This document shows positions 4,179-46,583 of a DNA stretch of 64,000 nt, one piece after another. Below the pieces are notes generated by a model that was not told the origin of the DNA, ran no database searches, and saw only the letters and a list, made by a program, of their open reading frames with translations. The position numbers were made by a program, and so were the translations under genes. The DNA comes from an uncultured Polaribacter sp. GTDB taxonomy: Bacteria > Bacteroidota > Bacteroidia > Flavobacteriales > Flavobacteriaceae. Position 1 is the stretch's first letter; each line of letters starts with the position of its first letter. The stretch covers positions 1 through 64,000 of the forward strand of contig CALSRX010000002.1 in the NCBI GenBank assembly GCA_943788865.1, written 5' to 3'.

Positions 4179-4706
4179 TTATTGTTTTTCTATATACGAT
4201 TTAAAATCATCTAAATATTTTTGATCTATCTCTGTAAACATTCCTTTAAAATAGGGAAAAACACAGCTCATTAGATAAGAATCACTTTTACAAATTACCT
4301 CTTTTATAATTGTTGTTTTCCCATTAGAAAAGCTAAAATTATAATCATCTGTTTTTAACATGTCATTAGCTTCCAAAAATAAAGTTACCTTTTTATTTGG
4401 AATGAAAGCCAATACCTTTTCATTCATCTCCATTTCTTTTCCTTCATTTTCTATAATCATTTTGTATTCACTACCAACGATACCCGGTTTAACATTAATT
4501 GGCTCAACAGATTTTACATCTGTTAACCATTCTTTCATCAATTCTTGATTATTGAATACTGAAAAAACCGTGTCAATTGGCTTTTCAATTTCTATTTTTA
4601 CTTGATAAGTTGTTTGTTTAACAATCAATCCTGTTGAAAAAAACACAATTACCAAAACAGTAACAATTCCTAAAATAATTTTTATTCCTTTCATTTTATA
4701 ATTCAA
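4179..4706 (-). CDS. SRPBCC family protein with N-terminal membrane anchor
   Basis: 175 residues. An N-terminal hydrophobic helix (about residues 8-28, IIILGIVTVLVIVFFSTGLI-like) is followed by a START/Bet v1-like domain with the common opening KIEIEKPIDTVFSVFNNQELMKEWL. Such domains bind hydrophobic ligands. The anchor suggests the domain sits on the far side of the inner membrane. Its start overlaps the end of the upstream hydrolase gene by 11 bases, indicating translational coupling. The specific function is unknown. Confidence 0.8.
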   Translation of the reverse strand: MNYKMKGIKIILGIVTVLVIVFFSTGLIVKQTTYQVKIEIEKPIDTVFSVFNNQELMKEWLTDVKSVEPINVKPGIVGSEYKMIIENEGKEMEMNEKVLAFIPNKKVTLFLEANDMLKTDDYNFSFSNGKTTIIKEVICKSDSYLMSCVFPYFKGMFTEIDQKYLDDFKSYIEKQ

Positions 4707-39348: not shown

Positions 39349-39381
39349 AACGTTATCCGGAAAACAAGACGGGATAACGTT
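39349..39381 (+). repeat. Hairpin upstream of a small accessory gene
   Basis: AACGTTATCC and GGATAACGTT form a perfect 10-bp stem with a 13-base loop. The right arm contains AACGTTA, the same boundary motif seen at the right ends of the stem-loops at 39857 and 40871. Confidence 0.55.
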
Positions 39382-39422
39382 ATAAAATATAACTATATAA
39401 CCAGTTGTGTGTAATTTGCCAA

Positions 39423-39845
39423 ATGACAGATAAAAAACATAAAATAGAAATTGAATTTTTAGACCACGTAGCAATTCGAGTTGTTGATATGGAAGCCTCT
39501 GCAATTTGTTACGAAAAAGTATTGGGACTAAAACGTTATCAATTACCTGAATGGGGAGACTTTCCAATCTTTTTACTTTCTGGAAAATCTGGAATTGCAT
39601 TGTTTCCTGCGAATACAACGGATACTAAACTTGAACCAACTTCAAAAAATGTAAAAATTGACCATTTTGCATTTAATGTGACAAGTGAAAATTTTGAAAA
39701 AGCTAAAAAAAGATATACCGAATTGAATTTGGAATTTCACATCCAAGACCATCATTACTTTGATTCGATATACACAAAAGACCTTGATGGACATACTGTT
39801 GAATTAACGACTATTAAAGTGAATGAACGAGAATTTTATAAATAA
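39423..39845 (+). CDS. VOC family protein in an accessory cassette
   Basis: Start at MTDKKHKIEIEFLDHVAIRVVDMEASAICYEKVLG, typical of the VOC fold. The first metal His lies in LDHVAI, a second in KIDHFAFNV, and the Glu in DLDGHTVELTTI. About 140 residues. It resembles glyoxalase or fosfomycin-resistance-like proteins, but the substrate is unknown. It is bounded on both sides by hairpin elements and has no operon partner, unlike most genes in the window. Confidence 0.75.
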   Translation: MTDKKHKIEIEFLDHVAIRVVDMEASAICYEKVLGLKRYQLPEWGDFPIFLLSGKSGIALFPANTTDTKLEPTSKNVKIDHFAFNVTSENFEKAKKRYTELNLEFHIQDHHYFDSIYTKDLDGHTVELTTIKVNEREFYK

Positions 39846-39856
39846 AAAACTACACA

Positions 39857-39985
39857 CAACAAAGCATAAAATTAATGGCTAGTTCTAGCTTACTTGAAAA
39901 ATTCCTGCGGAATTTTCCGCTGGTAAGTTTCTATTTACTAAATTAGTGCTTAAACGCGCCACTAATATTATACGTAACCGTTAGC
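39857..39985 (+). repeat. Long imperfect stem-loop, attC-like element 1
   Basis: The arms AAGCATAAAATTAATGGC (39862-39879) and GCCACTAATATTATACGT (39958-39975) pair at 14 of 18 positions. The left edge has CAAC (39857) and the right edge GTTAGC (39980-39985). Inside, AAAATTCC and GGAATTTT form a perfect hairpin, nested in CTTAC...GTAAG. The layout AAC - folded stem - GTT is that of integron attC sites, though the box sequences are not textbook. Confidence 0.55.
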
Positions 39986-40027
39986 AAACATTAAATAACA
40001 CCGTTCAAAAAAAACAAACACTTAATT

Positions 40028-40786
40028 ATGAATCATTTAGTTTCTAAGCTTATTTTTCAACCAAGTTTTTGGATTCTTTTTATTTGTTTGAACTTGAATT
40101 TATCTACAAATGCTCAGACTTTCATTAATATCGAATCAGGAGTATTATTTACGGGCTCTAATAATATTCGTAATGGCAATAATGGAACGCTATTTTCTCT
40201 GAAAAATGATTTTTCGACTCCAGCAACTCCATTTTTCAGACTTCGTGGTGGGTTTTTATTAAATGATAAACACCACTTTTCAATTCTTTATGCACCTTTA
40301 AAAATTGTAGTAAATGGCACAATAGATAGGGATATCCTTTTTGATGGAAAAAATTTTATAGCTAACTTGCCATTAGAAGCTGTTTATAAGTTTAACTCTT
40401 ATCGCCTTACCTATAATCGAAGAATCATAAGTAATAACAAATTTAAATTTGGTCTTGGCCTTTCTGCAAAAATTAGAGACGCAGGAACCTCTTTGAAGAA
40501 TAAAGAACTGATAAGCGAAAATTTTAGTATTGGTTTCGTGCCTTTAATAAACGTTTTAGCGAATTGGGATATTTCTCAAAAAGTGGGTGTTGAGTTTTTT
40601 GGAGAAGGTATAATTGCAAGTAAAGGTAGAGCAATTGACCTTTGCTTATCTGGAAAATATAATTTTACTAAAAATCTGCAAGGAAACATTGGTTATAGGC
40701 TACTTGAAGGTGGAGCAGACGGAACTAATCGGTATAATTTTATTCAACTCCATTTTGCCTTTGCTAGTTTAAACTTTTCATTTTAA
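40028..40786 (+). CDS. Putative outer-membrane beta-barrel protein
   Basis: 252 residues with a signal peptide ending near STNAQT (about residue 30). Alternating hydrophobic strands (FFRLRGGFLLNDKHHFSILYAPL, YRLTYNRRIISNNKFKFGLGLSAKI) and a C-terminal aromatic residue (LNFSF) suggest an outer-membrane barrel of 8-10 strands. I do not recognise a family. It lies between two attC-like stem-loops, with no co-directional partner close by. Confidence 0.6.
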   Translation: MNHLVSKLIFQPSFWILFICLNLNLSTNAQTFINIESGVLFTGSNNIRNGNNGTLFSLKNDFSTPATPFFRLRGGFLLNDKHHFSILYAPLKIVVNGTIDRDILFDGKNFIANLPLEAVYKFNSYRLTYNRRIISNNKFKFGLGLSAKIRDAGTSLKNKELISENFSIGFVPLINVLANWDISQKVGVEFFGEGIIASKGRAIDLCLSGKYNFTKNLQGNIGYRLLEGGADGTNRYNFIQLHFAFASLNFSF

Positions 40787-40870
40787 AAAAATAGTTAAGA
40801 GATCCAACGCTATAAATGTTTAGCTTAATATTAAATTTTTTATGAGTAATCATTGTTTATGAACGTTTTA

Positions 40871-41060
40871 CAACAATGTATAAAAAACATAGGGCATTCA
40901 TATTAAACCAAAAGGTCTGTGCATGTTTTTGAAGTCCGCTAAAAATAAAATTTGGCGTTTACAGAAGAAAAAATAAAAGCAAAATATTTATATTTAGCTA
41001 AGTAATAAACCGAAACGAAGTGCTTTTTAACTGCCCTACGTTTCTTATACTGAACGTTAC
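40871..41060 (+). repeat. Long imperfect stem-loop, attC-like element 2
   Basis: GTATAAAAAACATAGGGCA (40878-40896) and TGCCCTACGTTTCTTATAC (41032-41050) pair at 17 of 19 positions around a 135-base centre. The left edge has CAAC (40871) and the right edge AACGTTAC (41053-41060). It fills the 285-base gap between the barrel gene and the GNAT gene. The rest of the gap shows nothing coding. Confidence 0.6.
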
Positions 41061-41075
41061 AGGGCATTTAAAGAA

Positions 41076-41582
41076 ATGATGATTAAGATTAAAAAAGCCG
41101 TGAATAAAACTGAATTTAAAATTATCGAAAAATTGGCAATTGAAATTTTGCACGAAGTTTATGACCAAATTATTCCTGCCAAACATACCGATTATTTTTT
41201 AACTGAATTTCAATCGGTAAATGCAATTGGAAGACAAATTAAAAATGAGAATTTCAGTTATTTTCTCTTAAATTTTGAGAATAAAAATGTTGGATATTTA
41301 GGAATTCAAAAACTGAATAAAAAACTGATTTTGAGCAAACTTTACATTTTAGAATCGTTTCGTGGTCTAAAAATCGGAAAAACAGCGTTGGAATATGTTA
41401 ACGTATTTGCTGCGAATAACAGAATTGAAAAAATTGAGCTTATTGTTAACCAACAAAATCAGAATACGATTGACATTTATCTGAAAAAAGGATTTAAAAT
41501 TGTAGAATCGATTGTAAACTCCTTTCCAAGTGGATATTTTGTTGAGGATTATAAAATGGAAAAGATATTAATTGAGGAATAA
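41076..41582 (+). CDS. GNAT family N-acetyltransferase
   Basis: 168 residues. The acetyl-CoA loop is ESFRGLKIGKTALEYV (motif A, R/Q-x-x-G-x-G/A type, about 104-119), preceded by strand LILSKLYIL and followed by IEKIELIVNQQNQNTIDIYLKKGFKIV (motif B, where GF is typical). The acceptor substrate is unknown. It is flanked by attC-like elements 2 and 3, and genes of this kind are common integron cargo. Confidence 0.8.
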   Translation: MMIKIKKAVNKTEFKIIEKLAIEILHEVYDQIIPAKHTDYFLTEFQSVNAIGRQIKNENFSYFLLNFENKNVGYLGIQKLNKKLILSKLYILESFRGLKIGKTALEYVNVFAANNRIEKIELIVNQQNQNTIDIYLKKGFKIVESIVNSFPSGYFVEDYKMEKILIEE

Positions 41583-41593
41583 AAACAATTTGT

Positions 41594-41634
41594 CAACACC
41601 GTGTAAAATTAATTGCTAGTTTAAGTCAACTTAC
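41594..41634 (+). repeat. Left end of an attC-like element (truncated copy 3)
   Basis: CAACACCGTGTAAAATTAAT and the following TGCTAGTTTAAG match the left arm of element 1 (CAACAAAGCATAAAATTAAT...GGCTAGTT). No matching right arm appears before the next gene, so the copy looks truncated. Confidence 0.5.
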
Positions 41635-41650
41635 AAAATCAATAAAAAAC

Positions 41651-42006
41651 ATGTTAACAGACATCATTCCAAAATTACCGATGCGTAACAAAAAAGTTAC
41701 CAGAGATTTTATATACAACAGTTAGGTTTTAAAGAATTTGGAACTACAGCCTACGCGTATTATTTAATGTTAGAAAAAGATCAAATTCAATTGCATTTTT
41801 TTGAGTTTAAAGAATTAAATCCTAAAGAAAATTATGGTCAGGTGTATATTAGAACTGACAATATTGAGCGTTTTTATCAAACATTGTTAGACAATAAAAC
41901 CAGGATTCACCCAAATGGTTTGCTAGAAACAAAACCTTGGGGACAAAAAGAATTTTCACTACTCGACCCAGATAGCAATCTGTTAACTTTTGGAGAATCC
42001 ATTTAG
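41651..42006 (+). CDS. VOC (bleomycin-resistance-like) protein, one frameshift
   Basis: The start MLTDIIPKLPMRNKKVTRDF is followed by a break. One missing T in the T4 run at 41707-41710 restores DFYIQQLGFKEFGTTAYAYYLMLEKDQIQLHFFEF and then YIRTDNIERFYQTLL and WGQKEFSLLDPDSNLLTFGESI. This is the pattern of the bleomycin-binding-protein-like VOC family, about 118 residues. Such proteins bind and sequester drugs without catalysis. Whether this one confers resistance is unknown. Confidence 0.7.
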
Positions 42007-42092: not shown

Positions 42093-43937
42093 ATGGAAGA
42101 CAATAAAAGGGTAGTGTATATAAAAAGTGTTTTAGAAAACATGCCATCAAATTGGCTAAATCTAACAACGCATCAACTAGATATATATAATGAAAAATTG
42201 GCAAAAACACAGTTTTTAGATCAGTTTGAAACCTTGTTTCAAAACAATAATGCTACGCCTACTGCATTGAGCAAATTACCAACTGCGTATGATTATATTC
42301 GATTAGGCCATCCATTATCTTGTGTGTTAGAATGGACCATTGCCAGTTTGCATCAGTTAACACCTCAATCTGTGATTAGTTTTTCTTCACAAACGGTTCC
42401 TATTTTGGCCATTCTAAGAAAAAACCTGTTGGAAAATAAAAATACGCAGATTGTTTATACAGGCAAACTACCCACAACTTTTGATGCAGAGATCATAAAA
42501 AGTGTGTACGGCTATCAATTTGATTTGAAGAAGGTTGAAAATGAATCTGACATTGCTGCCTTTAACGGAAGTACCATTTTCATTTCTGAACAACATCAAA
42601 TTTTAAAAACAACACTTTCTAAACACAGCGATTTTTACATTCATTTATACAACGGATTAGGAAGTATTGTATTGGTAAATGGCAAAGAAAATGAACAATA
42701 TATTTCAGAAATACAACATGTAAGAAGAAGAGAAACTATTGCCATGACACCAGCAAATTCTCTAATCGCCTTAAAATCATTAACAGAAAACACAGCAATT
42801 GCTATTCAAAATAGCGATGTTGCCACAAACAAAAAACGTGTTACAGATGCTATAAAAACCATTACAGGTTCTAATACAAAAGCCTTGGTGGGCTCAAGCG
42901 GATTGTCTGTTCAGTATGCAATTATGATGGGTTTAATTGATGATGCCTTAGCAAATCACAAAGGAAAAGCAATTAAATTTATTGTTCCGCCAAATTGTTA
43001 TGGTGGCACAAACGATCAAGCAAGACGTGTTGCTGCTTGTTTAGAAAATGTAGAAGTGGTGGATTTACCAGTTGATGGCGATAACGATATGGTACAAAGT
43101 ATTGATATGGTTTTAACTAACATTGCCAATGAAGATGCGGTTCCTTATATTATAGCAGAAATTCCGACTAACCCAAGAGTAGAAGTTCCAGATTTGGTTC
43201 AATTAAAAAATGTGTTAAGCCAAGAACGTAAAACAGCAAATGGCAAGATAGCTGTAGATCCGGTGTTTATTTTAGACCAAACATTTTGTCCGAATGTACA
43301 TTTTTTAGGTGAAGGAGAAATCTTATCAACAGTGAGAACCATTTCGTATGCGAGTGGATCTAAATTTCCGAGTGGTGGAAAATGTACTGCTGGTTATGTA
43401 ATTGGAAATACAAAAACCACTGCGTTACTAGATAAAATTGAAGTCCATTTAACAATATGCGACAACGAAGCTACCAATCTTCAATATGAAATTTTAGCAA
43501 CACAAATGCCATCAATGAAACAACGCATTAGCGATGCGTATAAAAATACACGAGAATTTGTAAACTTCATCCACAAAACCTTACCAGAAGCGAAAATCAA
43601 TTTTGTGTCAGAAAGTTTGGCTGCACAAGGCTTCACACCCTCGGTTTTTTCATTAGACCTCCCTACAAAAGGAACTACTGCTGAAGAAAAGGAAGCCTAT
43701 AAACGTGTATTGAATCTTCAATTAATCAATTTAATGATTGCTGAAATTCCTAACGAAAGCAAGTATTGTGTAAGTTACGGTCAGTTAAAAGGATGTTATT
43801 GGACAATTCCTGCAACCTCAACGCAAGGAACAACTAAAGAAGGTGATAAAGATTATATCATTCGTACAGCCCTTTCACCTGATATCGATTTAGAATTGCA
43901 TAAAAAAGTCTTTTTAGATTTTGTAAAAACTATTTAA
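42093..43937 (+). CDS. Large Cys/Met-metabolism PLP-dependent enzyme
   Basis: 614 residues, longer than ordinary cystathionine gamma-synthases (about 380-400) because of an N-terminal extension of roughly 200 residues. The PLP region has PPNCYGGTNDQARRVAACLENVEVVDLP, AEIPTNPRVEVPDL, VDPVFILDQTF (Asp for the pyridine) and YASGSKFPSGGKCTAGYVIGN with the PLP Lys. Related proteins act on cystathionine-type substrates, but this long form is common in Bacteroidota and its reaction is not settled. The next gene is 7 bases downstream. Confidence 0.75.
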   Translation: MEDNKRVVYIKSVLENMPSNWLNLTTHQLDIYNEKLAKTQFLDQFETLFQNNNATPTALSKLPTAYDYIRLGHPLSCVLEWTIASLHQLTPQSVISFSSQTVPILAILRKNLLENKNTQIVYTGKLPTTFDAEIIKSVYGYQFDLKKVENESDIAAFNGSTIFISEQHQILKTTLSKHSDFYIHLYNGLGSIVLVNGKENEQYISEIQHVRRRETIAMTPANSLIALKSLTENTAIAIQNSDVATNKKRVTDAIKTITGSNTKALVGSSGLSVQYAIMMGLIDDALANHKGKAIKFIVPPNCYGGTNDQARRVAACLENVEVVDLPVDGDNDMVQSIDMVLTNIANEDAVPYIIAEIPTNPRVEVPDLVQLKNVLSQERKTANGKIAVDPVFILDQTFCPNVHFLGEGEILSTVRTISYASGSKFPSGGKCTAGYVIGNTKTTALLDKIEVHLTICDNEATNLQYEILATQMPSMKQRISDAYKNTREFVNFIHKTLPEAKINFVSESLAAQGFTPSVFSLDLPTKGTTAEEKEAYKRVLNLQLINLMIAEIPNESKYCVSYGQLKGCYWTIPATSTQGTTKEGDKDYIIRTALSPDIDLELHKKVFLDFVKTI

Positions 43938-43944
43938 AAGGAAC

Positions 43945-44421
43945 ATGAAACCTAGCATAGAACAATTGTCCGAAAAAAAATTGATTGGTTTGTATGTTAC
44001 AATGTCTTTAGCAAAGAATAAAACAGGTGACCTTTGGAAAAACTTTATGCAACGGCGTAAAGAAATCACCAATAATTTATCTAATGATCTAATTAGTTTG
44101 CAAGTATACAACTCAATCTATTTTCAAGATTTTAAGCCAACTACAACATTTGAAAAATGGGCAACCACAGAAGTATCTGACTTTAATGCTGTACCAAAAG
44201 GCATGGATGCTTTTGTTTTAGAAAGTGGACTTTATGCTGTTTTTAACTACAAAGGTTCTAGTACTAACACAGATATTTACCAATATATTTTTGGAGTTTG
44301 GCTCAAAAATTCTGAGTATCTATTAGATGACAGACCCCATTTTGAAGTGTTGGGAAAAAACTACAAAAATGCAGATCCAAGCTCAGAAGAAGAAATTTGG
44401 ATTCCCATAAAGAAGAAATAA
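43945..44421 (+). CDS. GyrI-like (AraC effector-binding fold) protein
   Basis: 158 residues. The pattern KLIGLYVTMSLAKNKTGDLWKNFMQRRKEI, SIYFQDFKPTTTFEKWATTEV, VPKGMDAFVLESGLYAVFNYKG and IWIPIK matches the stand-alone GyrI-like/BmrR ligand-binding domain, which binds small amphipathic compounds. No DNA-binding part is attached. It is probably cotranscribed with the PLP enzyme and ends at a strong terminator. Confidence 0.75.
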   Translation: MKPSIEQLSEKKLIGLYVTMSLAKNKTGDLWKNFMQRRKEITNNLSNDLISLQVYNSIYFQDFKPTTTFEKWATTEVSDFNAVPKGMDAFVLESGLYAVFNYKGSSTNTDIYQYIFGVWLKNSEYLLDDRPHFEVLGKNYKNADPSSEEEIWIPIKKK

Positions 44422-46560: not shown

Positions 46561-46583
46561 ATAACACGTATAAAACTCTTTAT

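Follow-up and report, generated by a model that had tools for sequence, protein, structure and literature searches.

A question raised by one stretch of bacterial DNA is whether a run of small genes separated by stem-loops represents an array of mobile gene cassettes and, if so, which recombinase would act on it. The run lies at positions 39349-41634 of a window of 64,000 nucleotides (nt), the whole stretch analysed, from an uncultured Polaribacter sp. (contig CALSRX010000002.1). A preliminary description likened the stem-loops to the attC sites of integrons. The comparisons below indicate that the array is very probably what is left, as an attI-like site and decayed cassettes without a recombinase, of a gene-capture system that resembles integrons and is native to Bacteroidota, and the earlier integron-like reading is supported and largely right. 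Upon direct reading, the hairpin, the three elements with the end motifs described for them and the four genes were all present. The parts of the array, including open reading frames (ORFs), are given below; R1 is a covariance model built from five elements of the same genome, element 1 included.

39349-39383, plus strand: GTTATCC..GGATAAC inverted repeat beside the attI-like site (DNA fold -8.8 kcal/mol, z -4.37).
39395-39406, plus strand: attI-like core, ATATAACCA joined to GTT, the left end of the array, with no adjoining recombinase.
39405-39980, plus strand: cassette 1, from the TT of its head to the G of element 1, with complementary ends.
39423-39845, plus strand: VOC-family gene, cargo of cassette 1 (PF00903, 2.1e-11).
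39849-39990, plus strand: element 1, attC-like site (R1 128.7 bits, as a member of the training set).
40028-40786, plus strand: barrel-like ORF, cargo of a cassette whose ends do not match (no Pfam or NCBIfam match).
40866-41063, plus strand: element 2, long attC-like site of ~198 nt (CAACA-AT-GTATAA / TTATAC-TGA-ACGTTA).
41076-41582, plus strand: GNAT-family gene, cargo (PF00583, 9e-11).
41590-41661, plus strand: element 3, attC-like, truncated, right half lost (74% identity to element 1 over 46 nt).
41767-42006, plus strand: VOC-like ORF 3′ of element 3 (PF12681 28.1 bits, cut-off 30.1), its reading frame apparently broken upstream.

How far do these parts follow the plan of a cassette array? 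Element 1 opens with CAACA-AA-G and closes with TTATAC-GTA-ACCGTTA, and element 3, as the preliminary description had it, starts in the same way (CAACA-CC-G). The head of cassette 1, GTTGTGTGTA, is the reverse complement of its tail, TACACACAAC. Compared with the expected GTTGTGTGTAGTTT, the observed GTTGTGTGTAATTT agrees at 13 of 14 positions, a match found only for cassette 1 among 35,356 GTT..AAC pairs lying 200-1500 nt apart in the window, of which 8 others show runs of at least 10. A search for matching heads of elements 2 and 3 gave none, and the head expected for element 2, GTTGTAAAACGTTC, is absent from the 3 kb upstream. Judged by its sequence, the array is decayed: cassette 1 alone is intact, the barrel-gene and GNAT cassettes lack matching ends and the last site is truncated. 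Of the cassette array first described, the attI-like end and cassette 1 stand and the other cassettes survive in decayed form; the elements are attC-like, and the hairpin before the first gene adjoins the attI-like site instead of being another attC. Repeats resembling this hairpin occur at C5:365292 and C1:180358 of the same genome, and also beside the recombinase-adjacent attI in locus L122. Elements 2 and 3 match R1 weakly in a 108-kb search (18.8 bits, E 0.081, and 18.7 bits, E 0.086); in the whole-genome search element 3 reached E 1.9, and element 2 was absent among the 150 of 1235 candidates scored. Folding considered on its own is mildly unusual for the element 1 stretch (z -1.78), and two pieces of element 2 gave z values of 0.24 and -2.31. 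Weak R1 matches at window positions 4520 and 60496 were inspected and judged not to be elements.

Copies of the element elsewhere in the genome were already visible by DNA similarity. In the genome of 2.37 Mb, R1 located 12 separate sites (E ≤ 3e-4); at E ≤ 0.01 it matched 39 of 59 genomes: the source genome, 33 of 35 from the same genus and 5 of 23 from other families of the order. Five genomes gave 51 to 57 matches, which are lower bounds because 57 was the number of candidates scored. The preliminary description had proposed such a search, and had named an element present once per genome, at conserved places and with identical neighbours in all strains, as what would speak against it. The opposite was observed, with many elements in many places and near-identical cassettes having mostly different neighbours; a search of 21 same-genus genomes at E 1e-10 recovered neither the VOC gene nor the GNAT gene of the window. 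The VOC gene of cassette 1 has a 64% relative in one genome of another family (no R1 element lies at the relative's locus, in G038), and no relatives of it were found in viral contigs and plasmids.

Which enzyme accompanies the elements? As had been anticipated, a recombinase lies outside the window: a tyrosine recombinase gene at C3:17512-18675 (387 amino acids) gives the best match to the integron-integrase model among the recombinases of this genome, below the cut-off, and one element is found one gene 3′ of it. Twenty stretches from relatives were chosen after the R1 survey and the recombinase positions had been seen; 13 of these, together with the C3 locus, make 14 loci with recombinase. 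All 132 R1 elements in the 14 loci lie 3′ of the recombinase and on the same strand, in a sample that leans to the 3′ side (~43 kb 5′ with 0 elements versus ~220 kb 3′ with 132). Within 200 nt 3′ of the recombinase stop codon, an attI motif, ATATAACnAGTT or ATATAAAC-type variants, was present in 20 of 27 loci, mostly once per locus (16 of 27 with a narrower pattern), and the first cassette had a best head-tail run of at least 10 in 13 of the 20. The order of the platform, as read from sequence, is a tyrosine recombinase gene, then an attI-like site (ATATAACnA followed by GTT), then cassettes, all on one strand, each cassette typically comprising a gene, or no recognisable gene, and a palindromic element. 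In the window the motif has one plus-strand match, at 39395, exactly at the start of cassette 1, and one minus-strand match, at 46574. Genome-wide there are 7 matches versus 5 for a reversed control pattern, so that the motif alone is weak evidence, and position and head-tail match carry the argument. The site is an analogue of integron attI by position, not by sequence. With the first motif pattern, 6 of 16 loci have the promoter consensus TAnnTTTG 13-14 nt before attI, as a candidate cassette promoter.

Three loci have further features of layout. In L343 (G008:C13) the element strand switches near 8.4-8.6 kb, giving two arms directed away from each other. G013:C1:2093135-2284987 contains many tyrosine recombinase genes at a regular spacing of ~7 to 9 kb. 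At L023:10753-11801 (minus strand), mobile mystery proteins A and B (helix-turn-helix and Fic; TIGR02612, TIGR02613) are encoded directly upstream of the recombinase.

Do the arrays behave as cassettes? The 238 elements analysed come from the 14 loci, seven continuation stretches and the window. The start of a cassette, GTTnnnnnnn, is the reverse complement of its own end, nnnnnnnAAC. Over 208 cassettes the run averages 9.17, and 1000 shuffles within loci gave 4.70 (sd 0.15, maximum 5.20); the match is complete over the first 10 bases in 146 of the 208. Among 186 cassettes selected for eight paired bases, pairing of the outer arm continues at positions 9 (180 cassettes), 10 (150), 12 (173) and 13 (180) and is interrupted at position 11 (1), which is A opposite C in 170. 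Since the first and last bases are reverse complements, a circularised cassette would rebuild a complete hairpin site. Whole cassettes also recur, forming near-identical clusters of 18, 12, 8, 5, 3, 2, 2 and 2 among 206. The copies in the six clusters inspected, all in genome G013, mostly stand next to different neighbours, and their identity sets in at the CGTT core; the exact cut inside CGTT is not readable from these data because the core is nearly constant at all sites. When cassette bodies were compared without the site, 61 of 206 clustered, and two clusters were common to different genomes at 93-94%. The longest ORF runs on the element strand in 139 of 211 cassettes and on the opposite strand in 6, while 66 have none of 60 codons (the count considers the longest ORF only). 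Cargo is diverse: 97 of 121 ORFs extracted outside G013 fall into 65 Pfam families, none with more than three members, and PADLOC families include DRT reverse transcriptases and restriction enzymes, one ORF per family, among the 25 of 93 families listed. The attC-like cassette plan first proposed is right.

These data bear on whether the element alone might be mobile, as a repeat resembling a miniature inverted-repeat transposable element (MITE) or IS200 that lands after genes. Solitary copies in the source genome, several with near-constant 3′ sequence, and the 8 of its 12 elements that lack a head of run ≥9 within 4.5 kb would suit such a repeat. The copies in arrays, however, are identical over whole cassettes, starting from the CGTT core of the upstream element, and the ends of a cassette pair with each other, which makes this explanation very improbable.

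The stems differ between the two strands. In predicted DNA folds the bottom strand is the more stable in 229 of the 238 elements (means -17.9 kcal/mol for the bottom and -14.7 kcal/mol for the top), against 74 of 236 control stretches taken inside cassettes. In the inner arms of the 232 elements that could be aligned, four paired bases being required at the start, the top-strand mismatches are A.C in 512 cases, G.T in 7 and of other kinds in 159. An A.C mismatch on the top strand is a T.G wobble on the bottom strand, and arm positions 7 and 12 show these most often. According to a passage of PMC3053210, the enzyme of known integrons likewise acts on the bottom strand, guided by extrahelical bases, of which the second lies near the I2 helix. 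The same stems argue against transcription terminators or other RNA structures following genes. That reading would be consistent with the hairpins and with the position of the elements, the ORFs on the same strand ending a median of 16 nt ahead of approximately the AAC. On the transcribed strand, though, the stems favour A.C and shun G.T, and are therefore the reverse of an RNA stem; in addition, head-tail complementarity spans the whole gene, units of gene plus element recur in new places, and no Rfam match at gathering score was found in 81 kb of arrays. The terminator or RNA reading, already contradicted, was rejected on the Rfam result and the A.C bias and is scarcely credible.

How widely does the arrangement occur? 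A chain search, which looks for chained hairpins with matching cassette ends independently of R1, gave chains on the 3′ side of the recombinase at nine loci out of 82, many of the others being IntI, Xer or short contigs. The nine are from Zunongwangia (one link), Algoriphagus (one link), Algibacter, Flavobacterium, Winogradskyella, Rufibacter, Seonamhaeicola and two records without a genus name. The Rufibacter array (L146) is otherwise similar and has sites of ~56 nt; L142 showed an extra single link, and one odd link in L149 was taken as chance. No chains were found by these chain-scan criteria in 18 mostly IntI loci. The recombinase itself aligns at E ≤ 1e-60 in 133 of 392 genomes of the phylum, and in at least 67 genomes, among the matches listed, the alignment starts by profile position 32 and hence covers an extra N-terminal domain. 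A further 20 stretches were chosen for family diversity, 13 having a full-length recombinase and at least 6 kb of 3′ sequence, five a recombinase core only, and two being too short. Chains followed 10 of the 13 full-length recombinases, with none 5′ (where little sequence was covered), and 0 of the 5 core-only relatives; 29 control loci (138 kb) gave 1 link. At least two links were obtained in families f1, f18, f22, f27, f39 and f67, and one, a weak case, in f32. On a plasmid of Chryseobacterium sp. SNU WT5, which was unremarkable in the chain search, a recombinase of 40% identity is accompanied by an attI motif.

The possibility that the cassettes are real and are moved by another enzyme, such as host XerC/XerD, the adjacent recombinase being incidental, can be judged on the same surveys. 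It would explain why some genomes have elements and no close recombinase. Yet in all 14 chosen loci, and in other families, the array starts with the recombinase, the attI motif is directly beside it and the core-only relatives lack chains, so that an incidental recombinase appears decidedly unlikely.

Is the recombinase an integron integrase? The C3 protein is a tyrosine recombinase (PF00589, 3e-37), and the catalytic residues R223, K248, H312, R315, H338 and Y347 are invariant in 24 of 24 recombinases. Its best family matches are TIGR02249 (201.4 bits, cut-off 265) and NF040815 (201.3 bits, cut-off 220), both below cut-off, and no protein of the genome exceeds the 265 bits of TIGR02249. The corresponding label, 'site-specific tyrosine recombinase/integron integrase', is carried by the Chryseobacterium plasmid relative and is silent about arrays. 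An IntI-specific insert near patch III defines the IntI-type recombinase in a passage of PMC9668308, and this domain is described as an adaptation to folded single-stranded sites in parts of PMC9668308 and PMC4792948. Between KGxKxR and HxxRH the new recombinases have a spacing of 58-63 residues, compared with 66 for Xer (four rows) and 100-101 for insert-bearing IntI (16 rows); the pattern failed or misread on L125, L136, L138 and L157, and a spacing of 58-59 is shared by XerA-like rows of other phyla. In a tree of 87 rows, from which nine fragments or oddly spaced rows and 11 rows with internal stops were omitted, the 16 insert-bearing IntI form one clade (100/99) and the new recombinases fall in a separate clade of 48 rows (100/98), with one row labelled 'other' inside it and L140, L141 and L148, 'new' by length, outside.

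A merely divergent integrase in an ordinary IntI-type integron or cluster of attC sites lacking integron integrases (CALIN) would be compatible with the 201.4-bit TIGR02249 match and with the modelled core of the relative L121, which resembles XerA (5hxy, Z 21.2) and IntI4 (2a3v, Z 20.6) about equally. Head-tail complementarity is also found beside the insert-bearing IntI genes L171, L177 and L181, in cassettes that were read by hand as a chosen set from the candidates of a noisy, permissive head-tail scan, L199 being left out because its recombinase could not be classed. Outer position 11, however, is an A.C mismatch in the present system and pairs in seven cassettes at L177 and L181, and in three cassettes at L171 it is unpaired without a fixed A.C. 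Together with the score below cut-off, the spacing of 58-63 as opposed to 100-101 and the separation of the two clades, this makes a divergent IntI unlikely; the ordinary IntI reading was rejected on the cut-off, the residue spacing and the tree. The recombinase, as judged from its residues and its place in the tree, is one without the IntI-specific insert and is not IntI. Of the two kinds of enzyme suggested earlier, IntI-like or another tyrosine recombinase, the second is present on C3, and the first is at odds with the missing insert, the cut-off and the clade. Because the recombinase lacks the insert and falls outside the IntI clade, the system would work like an integron outside the IntI family.

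Among other rows of the tree, L175, L180, L184, L186, L187 and L188 are proteobacterial recombinases forming a clade that joins the new one, not IntI (98/92). L166, from a Treponema metagenome-assembled genome, is an insert-bearing IntI of 409 amino acids; the query alignment starts at residue 25, and it may thus have an N-terminal extension.

The extra N-terminal domain of the recombinase comprises ~90 residues, and was modelled in L121, 54% identical to the C3 protein, with a predicted local distance difference test (pLDDT) score of 84.4; the full-length structure search covered the core only. HARP and XPB domains recognise DNA structure. Profile comparison linked the N-terminal domain to PF07443 HARP in 3 of 16 members (best E 0.0017) and likewise to DUF5710 in 3 of 16, both weak, and to the SMARCAL1 HARP chain 4o66 (E 0.027), a designed protein scoring better (E 0.017). 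The two best Foldseek matches were YciH (E 0.013) and then XPB (E 0.08), with 4o66 ranked 22nd (E 0.94), and in VIA-align XPB (Z 6.9, root-mean-square deviation 2.0, 56 residues) was tied with aIF1/eIF1 (Z 6.2). The kinship of the modelled domain is unsure, and these leads are weak. It is possible, rather than probable, that integrons evolved at least twice, with a parallel system in Bacteroidota in which an insert-less recombinase acts on cassettes folded as single strands and selects the strand through T.G wobbles at set places in the stem, read by an added N-terminal domain that senses mismatches or structure; this is rated lower because the fold match of the domain was tied with translation-factor folds.

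If the system operates as its parts suggest, the recombinase would capture the folded bottom strand of an element as single-stranded DNA, would cut within the CGTT core, by analogy with integrons between G and TT, and would move cassettes between elements and attI. The choice of strand would come from T.G wobbles at fixed stem positions, without an IntI insert, and the extra N-terminal domain may help to read the folded site. The window array would be a copy apart from the C3 platform, mobile only if the C3 recombinase or another acts on it.

Several observations weigh against this interpretation or parts of it. Action of the recombinase on these sites is suggested by adjacency, and three same-genus genomes (G006, G015, G022) have elements without a close recombinase. 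The C3 platform has an attI motif and a mismatched first cassette (run 5). In the source genome a head run of at least 9, sought within 4.5 kb, accompanies 4 of 12 elements only (the window, L320, L322 and L326), and its arrays are accordingly regarded as worn. The sequence 3′ of seven of the 12 is TTAGCGAAAC (L322, L323, L324, L326 and L328) or a near variant (L325 and L327), which heads 0 of 208 array cassettes and which the model does not explain. The R1 training set has little covariation (two-sided changes in 6 of 25 pairs, a covariation term of -0.4), and the wobble and folding counts are not independent, since the elements share descent and were found with R1. Two of the nine chain loci rest on one link, as do 2 of the 10 positives among full-length recombinases, 3 of 13 of which have no chain; in a first trial of the chain test, shuffled array stretches gave up to 4 raw links and the class 1 integron L120 none. 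Among the genomes compared, which represent each species once, a clean empty site was not found: the gap at C4:566564 holds other genes in the closest relative, G020, and at the window locus the comparison is not clean, as the neighbours differ. At L325, synteny with G020 stops just before the TTAGCGAAAC variant.

How does the proposed system compare with known ones? Like sedentary chromosomal integrons of the IntI type, it has a recombinase gene, an attI-like site and long one-direction arrays of mostly single-gene cassettes, with sites that end in AAC..GTT, heads and tails that are complementary and a bottom strand that is the better predicted folder. In contrast to these, its recombinase belongs to a separate clade, without the IntI-specific insert and with an additional N-terminal domain, and is followed on its 3′ side by an array on the same strand. 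The sites differ as well, with a long outer arm (10 bp) followed by the A.C mismatch at position 11, stem positions that are A.C (bottom T.G), and an AAC-to-GTT distance of mostly ~120 or ~185 nt (~56 nt in Rufibacter). The window array resembles a CALIN in having sites and cassettes with no recombinase beside them, but has retained an attI-like site at its left end, and its own sites are unlike those in IntI integrons. Integration of phage CTXphi by XerCD, as presented in part of PMC4792948, likewise involves an insert-less tyrosine recombinase on folded single-stranded DNA; the phage, however, has no cassettes or array, its stem lacks extrahelical bases and the enzyme is that of the host.

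A passage of PMC9024848 reports integrons of Bacteroidetes as rare, with In0 elements, then one complete integron (IntegronFinder 2.0), in Salinibacter, and Bacteroidetes/Chlorobi or Bacteroidota are named among integron-bearing groups in parts of PMC2426708 and PMC8618304. No description of a native Flavobacteriaceae integron system or of this recombinase class was found among the open-access papers listed by the searches, judged by title and start of abstract, with subscription papers and bioRxiv outside the search. Surveys that demand the IntI-specific domain would probably overlook such arrays. Should the proposed system be real, a widespread insert-less system with dozens of cassettes per array would constitute a large unnoticed reservoir of mobile genes, some of which resemble phage-defence genes, and it would become directly testable whether cassettes can recombine only with the insert, or whether this kind of recombination has more than one origin.

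Around the array, the left neighbour gene of the window was not found in the 1.5-kb flanks at 29 relatives' loci examined. The right-flank gene, 42093-43937, is present in 30 of 35 same-genus genomes (the exceptions are G006, G011, G015, G025 and G034) and in two of other families. At 43945-44421 of the window, with no element seen beside it, lies a gene for a GyrI-like protein with an additional match to Pfam Cass2 ('integron-associated effector binding protein', 2.9e-20).

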